From the NCBI RefSeq assembly GCF_001590905.1, contig NZ_BCTT01000023.1:1-33261 (forward strand): a stretch of 33,261 bases of DNA. The letters run 5' to 3'. The notes beneath the pieces were generated by a model, which did no database searches, was not told where the DNA came from, and was given only the letters and a program-made list of their open reading frames with translations. A program made the translations under genes and the position numbers. Positions 2,081 to 33,261 of this stretch are shown one piece after another. The DNA comes from Serratia grimesii NBRC 13537. Lineage in GTDB: Bacteria; Pseudomonadota; Gammaproteobacteria; Enterobacterales; Enterobacteriaceae. How positions within the stretch are numbered: the stretch's first letter is position 1; every line of letters starts with the position of its first letter.

Positions 2081-3602
2081 ACTCCAGGCTGCGATGCAGT
2101 TGTAGCAACAGGCGGTCCATACTGCGGTAACCCAGCGCCTCGCTCAAATGACGCTTATCAATATCCCGATCTCCTGCCAAATCAGCCAGCGTACGGGCTA
2201 CTTTTAAAATCCTCTGCCAGGCGCGAACCGATAATCCCAACGAGTTTAACGTTGTTTCAAGAAAACCAGCATCTGCTGTGCTAAGCCGACAATCCCGATC
2301 GACTTCGTTATTATTCAGCAGGGCATTGATCTTCCCCGCCCGCTTAAGCTGCCTTTCACGTGCCAGCAGCACACGCGCTCTTACGTGTATGCTGCTTTCG
2401 CCAACGATGCGGCGTTTGCTCAACACACCAGGCGGCAGTAATGGCACCTCAATCGATAAATCGAAGCGATCGAGAAACGGCCCCGAAAGTCGCCCCAGGT
2501 AACGTAGCACCTGCTGGGGCGAAGCGCGGTTATGCATACCTTGATAGTGCCCGGTAGGGCTGGGGTTCATCGCGGCGATCAATTGCACTCTCGCTGGGAA
2601 GCGGACTTTGGCGCTGGCGCGTGAAATCACAATCTCGCCGGACTCCAGCGGTTCACGCAGGGCATCCAGCACGCGTCGTTCGAACTCAGGCAGTTCATCA
2701 AGAAACAGGACACCATTGTGTGCCATCGATATTTCACCTGGTCGTGGCAGCGTACCGCCCCCGACGAGTGCGGCCATAGAAGCACTGTGATGCGGCGCGC
2801 GAAACGGCCTCTGTCGCCATGGTAGCGCTTGTGCGGGATGCTGCAGCAGGCTGGCGACGCTGATGCTTTCCAGCGCCTCCTGGTCGGTCAGTGGAGGGAG
2901 CAGGCTATTTAGTCGGCTGGCCAACATGGTTTTCCCCGTTCCTGGTGGGCCGACCAGCAGCAAATTGTGGCCCCCGGCGGCGGCGATCTCCAGCGCCCGT
3001 TTTGCCTGCTCCTGACCCAGTATGTCCTGCAAGTCAGCAGGTTCTTGCACCGTATCCGCTGCAAGCGGGGCACTGGCTGCGGGTAAATCGCTTTTACCCA
3101 ACAAAAACGCACAAACCTCAAGCAGGTGTTCTGCCACCCGTGTCTCACTTTGTGTAATCAGCCCCACCTCTCGCCCATTGGCGGTAGCTAAAATCAACTG
3201 CCTACCCGCATCCAGTGCTGCCAGTGCAGCGGGTATTGCCCCGCTGACACCCCGTAATGCACCGGATAACGCCAGTTCCCCGAGGAACTCGTAGCGAGCC
3301 AGCTTATCGGCTGGCAGCTGCTCGGAGGCAGCAAGGATCGCCAGAGCAATCGGCAGGTCGTAGCGGCCGCCTTCTTTGGGGAGGTCCGCGGGTGCCAGGT
3401 TGACGGTGATGCGCCGGGCAGGAAAGGTGAAGCCATTGTTGATCAAAGCACTGCGCACCCGATCGCGCGCCTCTTTCACTGTTGTTTCCGGGAGACCGAC
3501 CATTGTTAAGCCGGGTAGTCCATTACTGATATGCACTTCGACCGTGACTGAAGGGGCCTGAACGCCCAGGGTGGCTCGGGTATAGATAACCGCCAATGAC
3601 AT
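2079..3602 (-). CDS. yifB: YifB, ComM-family AAA+ ATPase (Mg chelatase-like)
   Basis: 507 residues. The N-terminal ChlI-like domain (about 1-170) is followed by an AAA+ core with Walker A GPPGTGKT at 218-225 and Walker B VLFLDE at 298-303. The C-terminal Mg-chelatase-type domain follows, including GPFLDRFDLSIEVP near 374-387. In Haemophilus and Vibrio, ComM is a hexameric helicase that extends branches during natural transformation; the role in non-competent enterobacteria is not settled. GAGGAG lies a few bases upstream of the ATG. Its position between maoP and the ilv region is the usual one. The protein looks complete. Confidence 0.95.
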   Translation of the reverse strand: MSLAVIYTRATLGVQAPSVTVEVHISNGLPGLTMVGLPETTVKEARDRVRSALINNGFTFPARRITVNLAPADLPKEGGRYDLPIALAILAASEQLPADKLARYEFLGELALSGALRGVSGAIPAALAALDAGRQLILATANGREVGLITQSETRVAEHLLEVCAFLLGKSDLPAASAPLAADTVQEPADLQDILGQEQAKRALEIAAAGGHNLLLVGPPGTGKTMLASRLNSLLPPLTDQEALESISVASLLQHPAQALPWRQRPFRAPHHSASMAALVGGGTLPRPGEISMAHNGVLFLDELPEFERRVLDALREPLESGEIVISRASAKVRFPARVQLIAAMNPSPTGHYQGMHNRASPQQVLRYLGRLSGPFLDRFDLSIEVPLLPPGVLSKRRIVGESSIHVRARVLLARERQLKRAGKINALLNNNEVDRDCRLSTADAGFLETTLNSLGLSVRAWQRILKVARTLADLAGDRDIDKRHLSEALGYRSMDRLLLQLHRSLE

Positions 3603-5176: not shown

Positions 5177-5237
5177 AAACCGGGCATTTTGCACGAGGTA
5201 TGACCAGATTGCGCCGAATAATAACGCAAAAAAAGTG

Positions 5238-5266
5238 TTGTCATGCCGCGCGGGACTATGGTACCT
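5238..5266 (+). promoter_or_regulatory. Probable ilvL/ilvGMEDA promoter
   Basis: TTGTCA at 5238-5243 and GTACCT at 5261-5266 are 17 bases apart. The surrounding text (GCAAAAAAA before, CTATGG and TTCGAA after) lines up with the remembered E. coli ilv promoter region. The -10 box is weak, as it is in E. coli. Start of transcription would be near 5273, some 37 bases before the leader peptide. Confidence 0.6.
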
Positions 5267-5309
5267 CTGTAGGTATTAGTTCGAAACGAGCACAGTGAAC
5301 AAACCTATT

Positions 5310-5408
5310 ATGAAAGCCTTTGCCCAAGTGATTAGCCTAGTCGTGATTAGCGTGGTGGTGATTATTATCCCACCGTGCGGGGCTGCACTTGGACGAAGAA
5401 TGGCTTAG
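5310..5408 (+). CDS. ilvL: ilv operon leader peptide IlvL
   Basis: A 32-residue peptide with 13 Ile, Val or Leu residues, concentrated at 7-20 and followed by PPCGAALGR, the same core as the E. coli IlvL peptide. Ribosome stalling at these codons when charged Ile, Val or Leu tRNAs are scarce prevents formation of the downstream terminator and lets transcription continue into ilvG. The N-terminus differs from E. coli and the C-terminus is RRMA. It is followed 23 bases later by the attenuator hairpin. Confidence 0.96.
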   Translation: MKAFAQVISLVVISVVVIIIPPCGAALGRRMA

Positions 5409-5431
5409 AAAACAAGCCGGAATCGCAAGAG

Positions 5432-5463
5432 AACCCCCGCACCGTAAGGTCCGGGGGTTTTTT
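5432..5463 (+). terminator. ilv attenuator terminator
   Basis: CCCCCG at 5434-5439 pairs with CGGGGG at 5452-5457. Inside that is a C-C mismatch and then ACC/GGT around a GTAA loop, followed by six T at 5458-5463. It lies directly downstream of ilvL and closely matches the E. coli ilv attenuator. Ribosome stalling on ilvL should favour an alternative antiterminator fold. Confidence 0.93.
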
Positions 5464-5497
5464 ATTGGCAAGAGAAAAGTGAAGCGAGGATAAAAAC

Positions 5498-5548
5498 ATG
5501 AGTAACAGAACAAAATCCTGCAATTATCGAAGTAAGGCGGGGAAATAA
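5498..5548 (+). CDS. ilvX: Small protein IlvX
   Basis: A 16-residue open frame, the same length as the E. coli small protein IlvX, with the shared pattern M-x-N-x-T-K-x-C. GAGGA lies seven bases upstream. Its stop is two bases before the ilvG start, and the ilvG ribosome binding site (GGCGGGGA) lies inside its last codons, so translation of the two is probably coupled. The molecular function is not known. Confidence 0.8.
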
Positions 5549-28210: not shown

Positions 28211-29455
28211 TTACAGCGAGTGTGATGGGTAGCGTGTATCCAGTCCGCTGGCAATGTGCTGAAATTGCTCGGTAATAATCTGCGAAAATCGCGGGTCGTT
28301 AATATGATAATCCGTTTTTACCAACCGCCGTTTGTTTGTTGGCTGCATCGTGCATTCCAGCGCCTGAACAAAAGCGTCTAACGCCAACGGATCCCAAAAA
28401 GGCTGTCCTGGCGCATCCAGTGCGGACACACCCCCTCCGGGGATCACAAAGCGTATTTCCCCTGTACAAGCATTCATTTTTTCCCCGATCCAACGTCCTA
28501 TCTGTGCATTCTCCTGTGGCGTGGTACGCACCAGTGTAACCTGGGGATTATGTCGATGGCGTAGGCGTCCGGCATAGCGTGCCGGTACGGTGTCGGGCGA
28601 AGCAAAATTGATCATGTCTATTGCGCCACAAGACAGTACGCAAGGAATACTGGTACGGGCGATGGCCCCGAAACGATCTTCATTGCAGGGTAAAACTCCG
28701 TCGAACAGATAATCGGCCACCTCAGTGATGGTCAGATCCAGCGCGGCACTGAGCAAACGGCTGTCGATCAACTTTTCCAGTGCTCTACCACCGCTGCCCG
28801 TTGCGTGGAAAACCAAGCAGTCCCAGTGGGACTCCAGTGTGGCAACAACGTTCTGTATACAGGGTGTGGTGACACCGAACATCGTCAAACCGAGCGCGGG
28901 TTTACCCCCGACTTCATCGTTGGAAGCAAAGCGTACGGCCCCTGCAATCTGGCACGCTGCATTGTTCAGGACGCGTCGTGAGATACGGTTGAGACCGGCG
29001 ATATCAGTGACGGAATACAGCATGGTGATATCGCTGTTGCCGACATAGGCCGAAACGTCACCTGCCGCCATGCTTGAGACCATTAATTTTGGCAGACCAA
29101 TAGGCAACTGCTGCATCGCTGGGGTGATAATGGCTGTGCCGCCGGAACCGCCCAGACCAAGCAGGGCCGCGATATCATTGCGAGTCAAAATAAAGCGTTC
29201 GAAAGCGACAGCCATGGCGGCAATAGCTTGGCCCCGGTCATGGCAAAATACGGCGTTAGCTCCCTCAGGGTGATAACGGGCAATTTCCGCTGCGCTAATA
29301 TCGGTAAGTGAGCTTGTTGGAAGGAGACGTGTCGAGAGATCAACGGTCAAAGTGGATAAACCTAGGCTGGAGATAGTCTGACGAACATACTCCAGTTCTT
29401 GTCCTTTGGTATCTGCTGTGGTAGCAATGTAGATAAATGTTGAAGTATCAGCCAC
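28211..29455 (-). CDS. UPF0261 family, Tm-1-like ATP-binding domain protein
   Basis: 414 residues recognised as UPF0261, the bacterial relative of the N-terminal domain of plant Tm-1. Visible features are [19 protein letters not shown] at about 100-118, a central [15 protein letters not shown] at 217-231, and a C-terminal [19 protein letters not shown] at 338-356. No signal or membrane segment. The start is GTG at 29455, with CAGGA eight bases upstream. Bacterial members often stand next to a gene for the Tm-1 C-terminal TIM-barrel (PEP hydrolase-like) protein; none is in this window. It is divergent from a TetR-family gene across two shared palindromes, so it is probably that regulator's target. 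Biochemical function is not established. Confidence 0.85.
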
Positions 29456-29564
29456 TGCTTATTCCTGCGGATTTTATAAATTATTTATTAAAATTATAGT
29501 GTTATTTGTTTTTTTGGATCCCTGGTGTTGGCGATTTAATACTGAATGATTAATATATCTACAT

Positions 29565-29584
29565 AATGAGACGCTAGTGTCATT
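29565..29584. promoter_or_regulatory. Candidate TetR-type operator, site 2
   Basis: AATGAGAC-GCTA-GTGTCATT, an inverted repeat with one mismatch. Its core ATGAGA-N6-TGTCAT has the same half-site and spacing as the perfect palindrome at 29606, with centres 43 bp apart (about four helical turns). It lies 110 bases upstream of the UPF0261 start. Confidence 0.6.
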
Positions 29585-29605
29585 TATGCAAGGCAAGGTC
29601 AGTTC

Positions 29606-29629
29606 AAAATGAGATGTCAGTCTCATTTT
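29606..29629. promoter_or_regulatory. Candidate TetR-type operator, site 1
   Basis: AAAATGAGA at 29606-29614 and TCTCATTTT at 29621-29629 are perfect 9-base inverted arms around a six-base spacer. The position in the divergent spacer between a TetR-family gene and the UPF0261 gene suggests it is the regulator's own binding site. Confidence 0.75.
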
Positions 29630-29729
29630 TGACCATCTAATGTTACCGACGAAGTGGAATGCTGTCGGTTTTGTGGTTATCGCGTGTTGTCCCGGGACGG
29701 GGAAAGCGAATAAGTATGATGAGGTAGCT

Positions 29730-30365
29730 GTGGTAATAACTGCTTTTCCCATGAAACAGGACCAAACTCTGACATCGACTCGGGCAAGAACCCATCGCTT
29801 ATTGTTGACCAGTGCCATGGCGTTGTATGACGAAGGGGTATTTCCTTCAATTACCGAGCTTGCCGCGCATGCACAGGTATCTCGTGCCACTGCCTATCGT
29901 TATTTCCCCACCCAAAGCGAATTGATTGCCGCTGTTGTGGCCGAAAGTCTGGGGCCGATTCTGGAATGGCAACCACAGGATCAGGACGCACTGAAACGCA
30001 TTCAGCAACTACTCACATTCGCTTATCCCCAAATGGAGCAGCACGAAGGGGCTCTGCGTGCCGCGTTGCAACTTTCGTTACAACAGTGGGCGAAAGCGAC
30101 ACCGGGTGAGAAATTTGTCCGCGGTAACCGTAAGCGCCTGCTTAATCTGGCGGTTGAGCCACTCCGGGATAAACTGCCGTCTGAGGAGTTGCAACGAGTC
30201 ATTCATTCTTTTTCGCTGATTTATGGCTCGGAAGTTTTTCTGGTACTGAAAGATATTTGGGGGCTGGATCTCGGCGGTATTCAGGATGTGACGCAATGGA
30301 TGGCGAAAGCCATTATTCGTCAGGCCGAAGAAGATGCGATGAACAGCAGAAAACCGCTAGCATGA
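29730..30365 (+). CDS. TetR-family transcription regulator
   Basis: 211 residues from a GTG at 29730, or 204 from the ATG at 29751. The TetR helix-turn-helix is clear: SITELAAHAQVSRATAYRYF, residues 33-52 in the shorter numbering. The C-terminal ligand-binding part is helical with no recognisable ligand signature. GAGG lies five bases before the GTG, while the ATG has no ribosome binding site, so the GTG is preferred slightly. The neighbouring UPF0261 gene on the other strand and the two palindromes between them suggest local autoregulation. The inducer is unknown. Confidence 0.88.
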   Translation: MVITAFPMKQDQTLTSTRARTHRLLLTSAMALYDEGVFPSITELAAHAQVSRATAYRYFPTQSELIAAVVAESLGPILEWQPQDQDALKRIQQLLTFAYPQMEQHEGALRAALQLSLQQWAKATPGEKFVRGNRKRLLNLAVEPLRDKLPSEELQRVIHSFSLIYGSEVFLVLKDIWGLDLGGIQDVTQWMAKAIIRQAEEDAMNSRKPLA

Positions 30366-30773: not shown

Positions 30774-33261
30774 ATGGAAAATAGACGTAAAGGAGTCAAG
30801 CCTGTTCAGGCGGCCTTCGGCTGGCCTGAAATTGGTGTTAATCGTGCACAGTGGAGTGCGATGCTTTTTTGCCTGGTGGCGATCGGTGGGGCGCAGGCTG
30901 CCCCTTATGTTGAAAGCGGTAAACCGGGCGATCCTGCTAGCTGGCGCAGTAAAGAGTTCAACGCAGAATGGGGGCTGGGGGCGATCCACGCCGATCAAGC
31001 CTACGCCGCCGGTTATAGCGGAAAAGGCGTAAAGCTCGGCATTTTCGATCAACCGGTATATGCCAAACACCCGGAGTTTGCCAGCCAAGACAAAGTGATC
31101 AACCTGGTCACTACTGGTATTCGCGAATACACCGATCCCTACATTCCGGTGAAAAAAGGCGACGTATTCCGCTATGACGGCACGCCGAGCGTGGATTCCG
31201 ACGGCACCCTGGGTTCACATGGCACCCATGTGGGTGGCATCGCTGCCGGCAACCGCGATGGTGGCGAGATGCACGGCGTGGCGTTCAACGCACAAATCAT
31301 CAGCGCGGAAAACGGCGACCCTGGGCCGGAAGACGGCATCATTCTCGGTAACGATGGTGCGGTGTACCAGGCCGGCTGGGATGCGTTGATCGCCAGCGGC
31401 GCACGCATTATCAACAACAGCTGGGGCATTGGCATCACTGAGAAGTTTGATCAGGGTGGCAAGGATCCGGCTTATCCCCACTTCACGCTCGCCGACGCGC
31501 AGAAACAATTCGATCAAATCAAACAGATCCTTGGCACCAAAGCCGGTGGCGCTTATCAGGGCGCAATTGATGCGGCACGCAGCGGTATCGTCACCATTTT
31601 TGCGGCCGGTAACGACTCCAACCTCAATAACCCGGACGCCATGGCCGGTCTGGCCTATTTCGTGCCGGAGATAGCCCCCAACTGGCTGTCGGTCGCCAGT
31701 CTGCAGGATCCGAACAACACCGGCGATTACAGCATCAGTACCTTCTCCTCCCGCTGTGGCTATACCGCCAGCTTCTGCGTTGCCGCGCCGGGCACCAGGG
31801 TGTACAGCTCAATCATTGAAGGCAACAGCGTAGATAACCTGACCACCGGTTATGCCAAATACAGCGGGACCTCAATGGCGGCGCCACACGTGGCCGGCAG
31901 CATTGCGGTGCTGATGGAACGTTTCCCGTACATGACCGGCGCGCAGGTTGCCTCAGTGCTGAAGACCACCACCACCGATATGGGCGCACCGGGTATCGAT
32001 GCACTGTACGGCTGGGGGATGATCAATCTGGGCAAGGCGATTAACGGGCCGGGCATGTTTGTTACCGAGCAGGATATTCCTGAAGAGTTTCGGGTTAGCG
32101 GCGCTTACGGCCCTGAGCAGTTTGTCGTGAATCTGCCGGGTGTCGGCGCGGTACTGGACAAGGGCAAACCGACCGAGCGCGTGTGTGACGATATTCATTG
32201 TGGGCTGGATGTCTGGAGTAACAACATTTCCGGTCACGGTGGCCTGATCAAACAGGGCATCGGTACCCTGGTGCTGACCGGCAACAATAGTTACGCAGGG
32301 CCGACGCTGATCAATCAGGGCCTGTTGGCAATCAACGGTTCGGTCACCTCGGACGTTACGGTGCAAAACGCCGGTGTGCTGGGCGGCTCCGGTACCCTGG
32401 GGTCATTGACGGCCCGCAGTGGCGGCACCGTGGCGCCGGGCAACTCGATCGGGACGTTGAATGTAGCAGGTAATGTCAGCTTCGAACCGGGTTCCCGCTA
32501 TGCGGTAGAAGTGGCGCCAAACGGCCAGAGCGATCGGATCCAAAGCAGCGGATCGGCAACGATCGGTGGCGGTGAAGTCGTGGTGTTGCAGGAACAAAAC
32601 ACCAACCTGCTGTCGCAAGATAGCGTGAGCAGTTTGCTTGGCCGCCAGTACAACATTCTGACTGCCCAGCAGGGGATAAGCGGGCAGTTTTCTTCTACTT
32701 CAACTTTTTCTCCCTTCCTCGGCGCCGGGCTGACCTACCAGCCCAATCAGGTGACGTTGAACGTCGGTCGTAACGACACCGCCTTTGCCAGCGTGGCCGC
32801 CACCCAAAACGAACGTGCAGTAGCAGCCGCGGCGGATGCCCTGGCGGCGGGAAACCCGGTGTACGAGAGCATCCTCAATGCCGGTTCGGCAGGGGAGGCC
32901 CGTCAGGCGTTCCGTCAGCTGTCCGGGCAGATCCACGCGGATATTGCCTCGGCACAGGTTAACGACAGCCGTTACCTGCGTGATGCGTTGAACGGCCGAC
33001 TGCGACAGGCAGAAGGACTGGCAACCTCGCCGGACATCAAGGCGGACGACGACGGAGGTGCCTGGGCGCAGTTGCTGGGGGCCTGGGACCATGCGTCGGG
33101 CGATGCCAATGCGACGGGCTATCAGGCATCGACCTACGGTGTGCTGGTGGGGCTGGACTCGGCGTTGGCGGATGACTGGCGCTTGGGTGTGGCGACCGGC
33201 TACACCCGGACGTCACTGGATGGCGGCTACGGCTCGAATGCCGACAGCGACAACTACCACC
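30774..33261 (+). CDS. Subtilisin-like (S8) serine protease autotransporter, cut by window end
   Basis: 829 codons are visible and the frame is still open at the edge. An extended N-terminus (1-29) precedes a signal core at about 30-42 (MLFCLVAIGGAQA). The S8 protease domain follows, with catalytic Asp92 (GIFDQPV), His149 (GSHGTHVGG) and Ser367 (SGTSMAAPHVAG), and oxyanion Asn280 (AAGND). An autotransporter-associated repeat lies at about 488-521 (GTLVLTGNNSYAGPT). The outer-membrane beta-barrel begins near 762 (GAWAQLLGAWDHASGD); most of it lies outside. The layout fits the Serratia Ssp-type secreted proteases. The ATG at 30774 is the first in frame after a stop at 30738; its ribosome binding site is weak. 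Starting at Met30 would leave a signal with no positive charge. Confidence 0.95.
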   Translation, partial: MENRRKGVKPVQAAFGWPEIGVNRAQWSAMLFCLVAIGGAQAAPYVESGKPGDPASWRSKEFNAEWGLGAIHADQAYAAGYSGKGVKLGIFDQPVYAKHPEFASQDKVINLVTTGIREYTDPYIPVKKGDVFRYDGTPSVDSDGTLGSHGTHVGGIAAGNRDGGEMHGVAFNAQIISAENGDPGPEDGIILGNDGAVYQAGWDALIASGARIINNSWGIGITEKFDQGGKDPAYPHFTLADAQKQFDQIKQILGTKAGGAYQGAIDAARSGIVTIFAAGNDSNLNNPDAMAGLAYFVPEIAPNWLSVASLQDPNNTGDYSISTFSSRCGYTASFCVAAPGTRVYSSIIEGNSVDNLTTGYAKYSGTSMAAPHVAGSIAVLMERFPYMTGAQVASVLKTTTTDMGAPGIDALYGWGMINLGKAINGPGMFVTEQDIPEEFRVSGAYGPEQFVVNLPGVGAVLDKGKPTERVCDDIHCGLDVWSNNISGHGGLIKQGIGTLVLTGNNSYAGPTLINQGLLAINGSVTSDVTVQNAGVLGGSGTLGSLTARSGGTVAPGNSIGTLNVAGNVSFEPGSRYAVEVAPNGQSDRIQSSGSATIGGGEVVVLQEQNTNLLSQDSVSSLLGRQYNILTAQQGISGQFSSTSTFSPFLGAGLTYQPNQVTLNVGRNDTAFASVAATQNERAVAAAADALAAGNPVYESILNAGSAGEARQAFRQLSGQIHADIASAQVNDSRYLRDALNGRLRQAEGLATSPDIKADDDGGAWAQLLGAWDHASGDANATGYQASTYGVLVGLDSALADDWRLGVATGYTRTSLDGGYGSNADSDNYH

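Follow-up and report, generated by a model that had tools for sequence, protein, structure and literature searches.

We suggest that two palindromic sites in the spacer between divergent tetR and UPF0261 genes of Serratia grimesii NBRC 13537 are the operators of a local TetR repressor that would be dedicated to UPF0261 and would also regulate itself, a reading to which we give a probability of roughly 85%. They lie in a stretch of 33,261 nucleotides, which we refer to as the window. The sites themselves, their conservation, their specificity for a single locus, their co-occurrence with TetR and their spacing classes were all obtained directly. As a type of system, a local TetR regulator and its two putative operators are nothing unusual. 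The closest known counterparts are of the TetR/tetA type, where a TetR-family repressor controls itself and a divergently oriented target gene; the present case differs in that the target belongs to the unexplained UPF0261 family and is not an efflux pump. What makes it interesting is how strong and how broad the footprint is, together with the fact that the protein family it would govern is both widespread and unexplained.

Site 1, the putative operator nearer UPF0261, occupies positions 29565-29584 (no strand assigned; core TGAGAC-GCTA-GTGTCA at 29567-29582). It reads AATGAGAC-GCTA-GTGTCATT and is complementary in seven of its eight pairs. Site 2, the putative operator nearer tetR, occupies 29606-29629 (no strand assigned; core TGAGAT-GTCA-GTCTCA at 29610-29625) and reads AAAATGAGA-TGTCAG-TCTCATTTT, with two complementary 9-bp arms flanking six bases that do not pair. 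The centres of the two sites, at 29574.5 and 29617.5, are 43 bp apart. An earlier, sequence-only reading of this DNA had given the half-sites, the coordinates and the centre distance of both palindromes, and direct reading bears these out; it had also called 29606-29629 a perfect 24-bp palindrome, which holds for the arms and not for the unpaired centre, and is therefore slightly overstated. When a pattern built from both sites was searched at up to one mismatch, five strand-matches were seen in the window against a shuffle mean of 0.21, and none of 100 shuffles of the window reached five. These five are the two sites, each on both strands, and one further match at position 3596. Over the 5.07-Mb genome, ATGAGA-N6-TCTCAT occurs exactly at one place and with one mismatch at eight, site 1 included; at up to two mismatches, the whole genome gives 85 matches per strand versus 73 for a reversed control. 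Imperfect single matches are thus near the genome background, and so the case for the sites rests on their pairing and their conservation.

The gene presumed to be regulated (28211-29455, minus strand, GTG start) encodes a UPF0261 or Tm-1-like protein of 414 amino acids, whose family membership was confirmed by its PF06792 and PF23189 domains and by a Tm-1 N-terminal fold in domain and fold tests. On the plus strand, 29751-30365 encodes a TetR-family regulator (Pfam TetR_N) of about 204 amino acids. Its start codon is uncertain; we took the ATG at 29751, and the open frame begins at an ATG at 29640, which also lies beyond both sites. The divergent spacer, 29456-29750 (no strand assigned), was aligned in 24 Serratia genomes and holds both sites, and the gene coordinates agree with the earlier placement of the palindromes between divergent tetR and UPF0261 genes. 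The helix-turn-helix of the regulator (TetR_N, PF00440) scored 25.3 bits (cut-off 24) when the longer frame starting at 29640 was used, and residues 11-70 were modelled at block pLDDT values of 81-96 in the predicted structure. The segment SRATAYRYFP, which from its position we take to be the recognition helix, is invariant across a 23-row TetR alignment, with single changes in loci L209 and L222. Among the named TetR equivalogs (ScbR-type, KstR, MftR, BetI, FadR, HapR and SlmA), the best match reached 28.7 bits against an NCBIfam cut-off of 150, and no close relative of the regulator was named by NCBIfam, PDB sequence or fold searches.

A candidate UPF0261 promoter, TTGCAT-N17-CATTAT, may lie on the minus strand at 29563-29591, with three and four matches to the six consensus bases of its two hexamers. 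Site 1 overlaps the spacer of this candidate. The corresponding plus-strand columns, TGCAAG and ATAATGAGAC, are invariant in all 24 Serratia rows; neither hexamer matches the sigma-70 consensus well, and the candidate fell below the threshold of a consensus promoter scan, which did not report it. A conserved block, CCCTGGTGTTGG, was also seen in the UPF0261 leader, at 29520-29531 (no strand assigned), between the sites and the UPF0261 start. It reads CCAACACCAGGG on the UPF0261 strand and can be recognised, though altered in places, in the 24 Serratia rows of the alignment and with zero or one mismatch in loci L100-L103.

TetR-family regulators usually repress, and a small molecule acts as the inducer. 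We suggest that dimers of the neighbouring TetR would occupy both palindromes here, and that in the uninduced state the dimers on site 1 and site 2 would keep the UPF0261 promoter shut, since site 1 seems to overlap its core, with occupancy of site 2 limiting the transcription of tetR itself. The two dimers would be on roughly the same helical face of the DNA and would probably assist each other. A small molecule, most likely the substrate or product of UPF0261, would then release TetR and induce the unit. It is unlikely that TetR is instead an activator of UPF0261, or activates UPF0261 and represses itself, even though the sign of regulation is not readable from sequence and activators too can have phased site pairs. 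An operator that overlaps the candidate core promoter, as site 1 does, is usual for repression, and most characterised members of the TetR family repress.

An alignment of the spacer across Serratia and its relatives had been proposed beforehand as one check. We searched 30 Serratia genomes for UPF0261, TetR and the sites. UPF0261 was matched in 25 of these, in one of them (G005) as fragments only, and TetR was essentially full length in 24, with the copy in G002 ending about ten residues early. Genome G018 retains only the last third of TetR, and the TetR match in G005 is weak and unrelated. Both sites were kept in every one of the 24 Serratia genomes that have both genes, and it is because of this conservation that the site pair stands above chance. 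The spacing between the sites is 43 bp in 22 of these genomes, 45 bp in G004 and 42 bp in G022. With gaps scored as mismatches, the mean majority-base frequency in the 24-row alignment was 0.951 over the 24 half-site columns, compared with 0.677 in the N4 centres and 0.698 over the 263 other spacer columns; 18 of the 24 half-site columns are invariant, versus 38 of the 263 others. A better consensus for the sites is TGAGAC-N4-GTMTCA.

The motif is also specific for one locus. An exact TGAGACNNNNGTMTCA has a single match per genome in 22 of the 30 Serratia genomes, always within the tetR-UPF0261 spacer by its coordinates, and a reversed control of the same motif gave zero to three matches per strand, with a non-zero count in 10 of the 30. 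No exact match is seen in the window genome or in G023, although both genes are there, since every site is off by a base or two, in the window genome by one base each; the six other genomes without one are missing an intact gene pair. Enrichment was scored in 22 neighbourhoods of 12-14 kb, which had been picked for TetR or UPF0261 and not for sites. Their spacers, 6,586 positions in all, held 8, 27 and 5 sites at zero, one and two mismatches, against 0, 0 and 1 in 260,106 non-spacer positions, and at least one site was present in the spacer of each of the 22. By both the exact motif counts and this enrichment, the palindromic motif stands beside its own gene and nowhere else.

Moreover, the motif follows the regulator. 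Sites were found at none of 16 UPF0261 loci without this TetR (11 at 48-55% UPF0261 identity and five at 25-30%). One site each was seen at a locus where TetR faces PF09370 alone (L242) and at another where it faces a Dabb-domain protein (PF07876; L240), and four TetR paralogues with neither UPF0261 nor PF09370 (L238, L239, L241 and L243; 52-56% TetR identity) have no site at up to one mismatch within 11 kb. Therefore, it appears that the motif accompanies TetR where a related target remains, and that the helix SRATAYRYFP by itself does not predict the operator. Three of these paralogues (L239, L241 and L243) are divergent from a gene of 545-567 amino acids, the operator being missing, and may have changed their specificity. 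A gene of this type is EptA-like by Pfam in L242 and similar by eye in L241.

Two further arrangements were observed around these loci. In genome G088, the TetR and operator at L242:4096-5988 face PF09370 alone, with the EptA-like gene beyond, and the UPF0261 gene of that genome is at another TetR locus (L141), which has no recognised PF09370 gene. The Dabb-domain protein at L240:4944-5264 faces a second TetR copy with its operator, and at L236:2837-3163 such a protein follows PF09370. From these two loci, Dabb may be a further member of the regulon, serving the same process.

These results bear on whether the palindromes might serve a different, global regulator, TetR being an incidental neighbour. 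The link between TetR and the sites is itself drawn from sequence comparison, and the four site-less paralogues would suit such a regulator; however, an exact motif at one place in most of the Serratia genomes would hardly be expected from it, and the motif is absent from all 16 of the UPF0261 loci without this TetR, whereas two TetR loci keep it after the loss of UPF0261. We therefore regard a global regulator as very unlikely. The claim of a dedicated regulator, made before any of these comparisons, is strongly supported by a motif that is confined to a single locus in 22 of 30 genomes, is missing from 16 of 16 UPF0261 loci without this TetR, and shows the highest conservation of any part of the spacer.

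The TetR-UPF0261 unit is widespread. At the family level, 149 genomes were searched, and TetR was found at E values up to 1e-15 in 38, the matches in G045, G060 and G158 containing an internal stop codon. Not counting the window genome and G022, we inspected 28 of the family loci. A divergent UPF0261 gene is present in 26 of the 28, and all 26 have at least one site at up to two mismatches. Two or three sites at up to three mismatches were seen in 20 of these (14 with a spacing of 41-43 bp and six with 32-34 bp), and the remaining six have a single site. The two family-level TetR loci without UPF0261 have no TGAGAC-type site, and one of them has an ATGAGA-type site at three mismatches. In the order-level search, TetR was found in 10 of 197 genomes, with seven of the loci coming from one other family; five of the seven keep UPF0261 and one site each. 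The other two, L221 and L222, have lost UPF0261 and kept TetR together with an exact site; one of the TetR matches has an internal stop codon, and one of the two loci has a decayed UPF0261 remnant below the Pfam cut-off. Since a single site is seen in six of 26 family-level loci and in all five order-level loci with UPF0261, the pair is not always needed.

In the phylum-level search, in which up to seven candidates were scored per genome, TetR was found in 14 of 398 genomes: four of the same family as the window genome, seven of one other family, and three with distant TetRs. At all seven other-family loci (TetR identity 46-50%), UPF0261 is accompanied by a pair of sites spaced 19 bp apart, at up to three mismatches; the three distant TetRs (30-37% identity) have neither UPF0261 nor sites. 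Plasmids of Vibrio casei and V. alginolyticus carry a TetR-UPF0261-PF09370 arrangement with two sites 19 bp apart. On plasmids of Rhizobium johnstonii and Phyllobacterium, the unit is found close to a cupin gene and to an ABC transporter of the sugar type, with one site at one mismatch and one at three in each, and a locus of S. meliloti (L210) has degenerate sites only, at three mismatches. In E. coli, the spacer gave no match among 20,395 records.

Across these loci, the spacing of the sites falls into classes of 41-45, 32-34 and 19 bp, the last in Vibrio and rhizobia. The common spacings correspond to about 4.1, 3.1 and 1.8 helical turns; at 10.5 bp per turn, a spacing of 45 bp makes 4.3 turns and one of 19 bp makes 1.8, neither being a whole number. 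The proposal that the two sites are about four helical turns apart fits how they have evolved, the spacing being 41-45 bp or, in some genera, smaller by about a turn, at 32-34 bp. Dimers spaced by 41-45 or 32-34 bp would be near the same face, and those spaced by 19 bp roughly so. A Rayleigh R of 0.66 at a period of 10.5 was not relied on, since the 32 distances behind it include related, and hence non-independent, loci and omit two of the eleven 19-bp ones. That the inverted repeats, intergenic as they are, form RNA or DNA hairpins (a terminator or a leader structure) and are not protein sites is scarcely credible, as the region 29400-29800 has no terminator-like site and no Rfam match at the gathering threshold, and as the centres vary freely and the half-site letters are largely kept across genera, which pairing alone would not require.

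PF09370 is a candidate second target of TetR in most of the other genera sampled, and is absent here. It lies directly downstream of UPF0261 in seven of the 30 Serratia genomes and has no match in the other 23, that of the window included, six of which are also without an intact UPF0261. A PF09370-cluster gene was present in 15 of 20 neighbourhoods (two being Serratia genomes among the 30). Beyond UPF0261 and PF09370, no gene that might mark a linked pathway in Enterobacterales was common to all 20 neighbourhoods, and some occurred in two to eight. The median dN/dS of UPF0261 in the 17 Serratia genomes without PF09370 is about 2.7-fold above that in the seven with it, and that of TetR is nearly unchanged. 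An open frame of 700 amino acids in G015 and G016 had hinted at a fusion of UPF0261 with PF09370; this was rejected, since in our translation the UPF0261 frame stops after 418 residues in both.

As far as its accessible text goes, PMC5028733 reports that UPF0261 and PF09370 co-evolve, UPF0261 being present in 491 of the 504 bacterial genomes that have the TIM-barrel gene, and that UPF0261 occurs in bacteria, archaea and fungi and, when fused to the PF09370 TIM barrel, gave rise to the plant antiviral protein Tm-1. The UPF0261 protein described here resembles that of the published pair in having both Pfam domains, and differs in that the assembly of the window's genome has no PF09370 match. The words TetR and Serratia do not appear in the text of PMC5028733. 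From the accessible parts of other papers, COG5441 is UPF0261 (PMC2364660), COG5441 and COG5564 are a co-occurring pair in fungi (PMC8963296), a UPF0261 gene of Brucella is among the candidates of a virulence mutant screen (PMC2364660 and PMC12613988), and a fungal UPF0261 gene is among those changing in wood decay (PMC6867892). The accessible text of PMC5028733, PMC2364660, PMC12613988 and PMC6867892 does not treat the regulation of a bacterial UPF0261 gene, and that of PMC9618137, PMC12790356, PMC12167813 and PMC11837543 has nothing on a TetR-UPF0261 unit. Our literature search found no paper on the unit, in keeping with the initial remark that it was not recognised from the literature. Nor was the operator motif found in print, which is a weak test because papers rarely print motifs in that way. 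Saro_1862, a UPF0261 protein of Novosphingobium aromaticivorans that has bound acetovanillone according to the title of PDB entry 9mpy, is about 30% identical, and the search returned no paper on Saro_1862 or tying it to acetovanillone breakdown. That title may be a lead towards the hydroxyphenylethanone (acetovanillone) Hpe/Acv catabolic pathway, which is marked by genes for the kinase HpeHI and the biotin carboxylase HpeCBA.

The literature found, to the extent of its accessible text, gives no reaction or signal for bacterial UPF0261 proteins. A dedicated TetR with a defined putative operator could therefore be used to screen for the molecule that releases the regulator, providing a handle on UPF0261 function. 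In addition, site pairs whose spacing changes by steps near a helical turn, kept across two classes of bacteria, offer a natural series for the study of cooperative TetR binding. As a speculation that we hold with considerable doubt, TetR could be a sensor for the UPF0261 substrate, a phenolic or other small ketone-like compound of the class handled by an ATP-using UPF0261-PF09370 enzyme together with accessory small barrels of the Dabb and cupin types. If so, the regulator and operator, which are portable between the Alpha- and Gammaproteobacteria as well as onto plasmids, would reveal the chemistry still missing for the family that gave rise to plant Tm-1, and the Serratia clade that lacks PF09370 would be nature's own example of UPF0261 acting alone or having been repurposed.

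Elsewhere in the window, an Rfam scan placed a tRNA at 54-126, and Rfam RF02744 (the Rev39 5' UTR of soft-rot Enterobacteriaceae) matched at 5233-5535 with 179 bits. A large open frame at 30774-33260, which runs out of the window, resembles by eye a subtilisin-type autotransporter protease.
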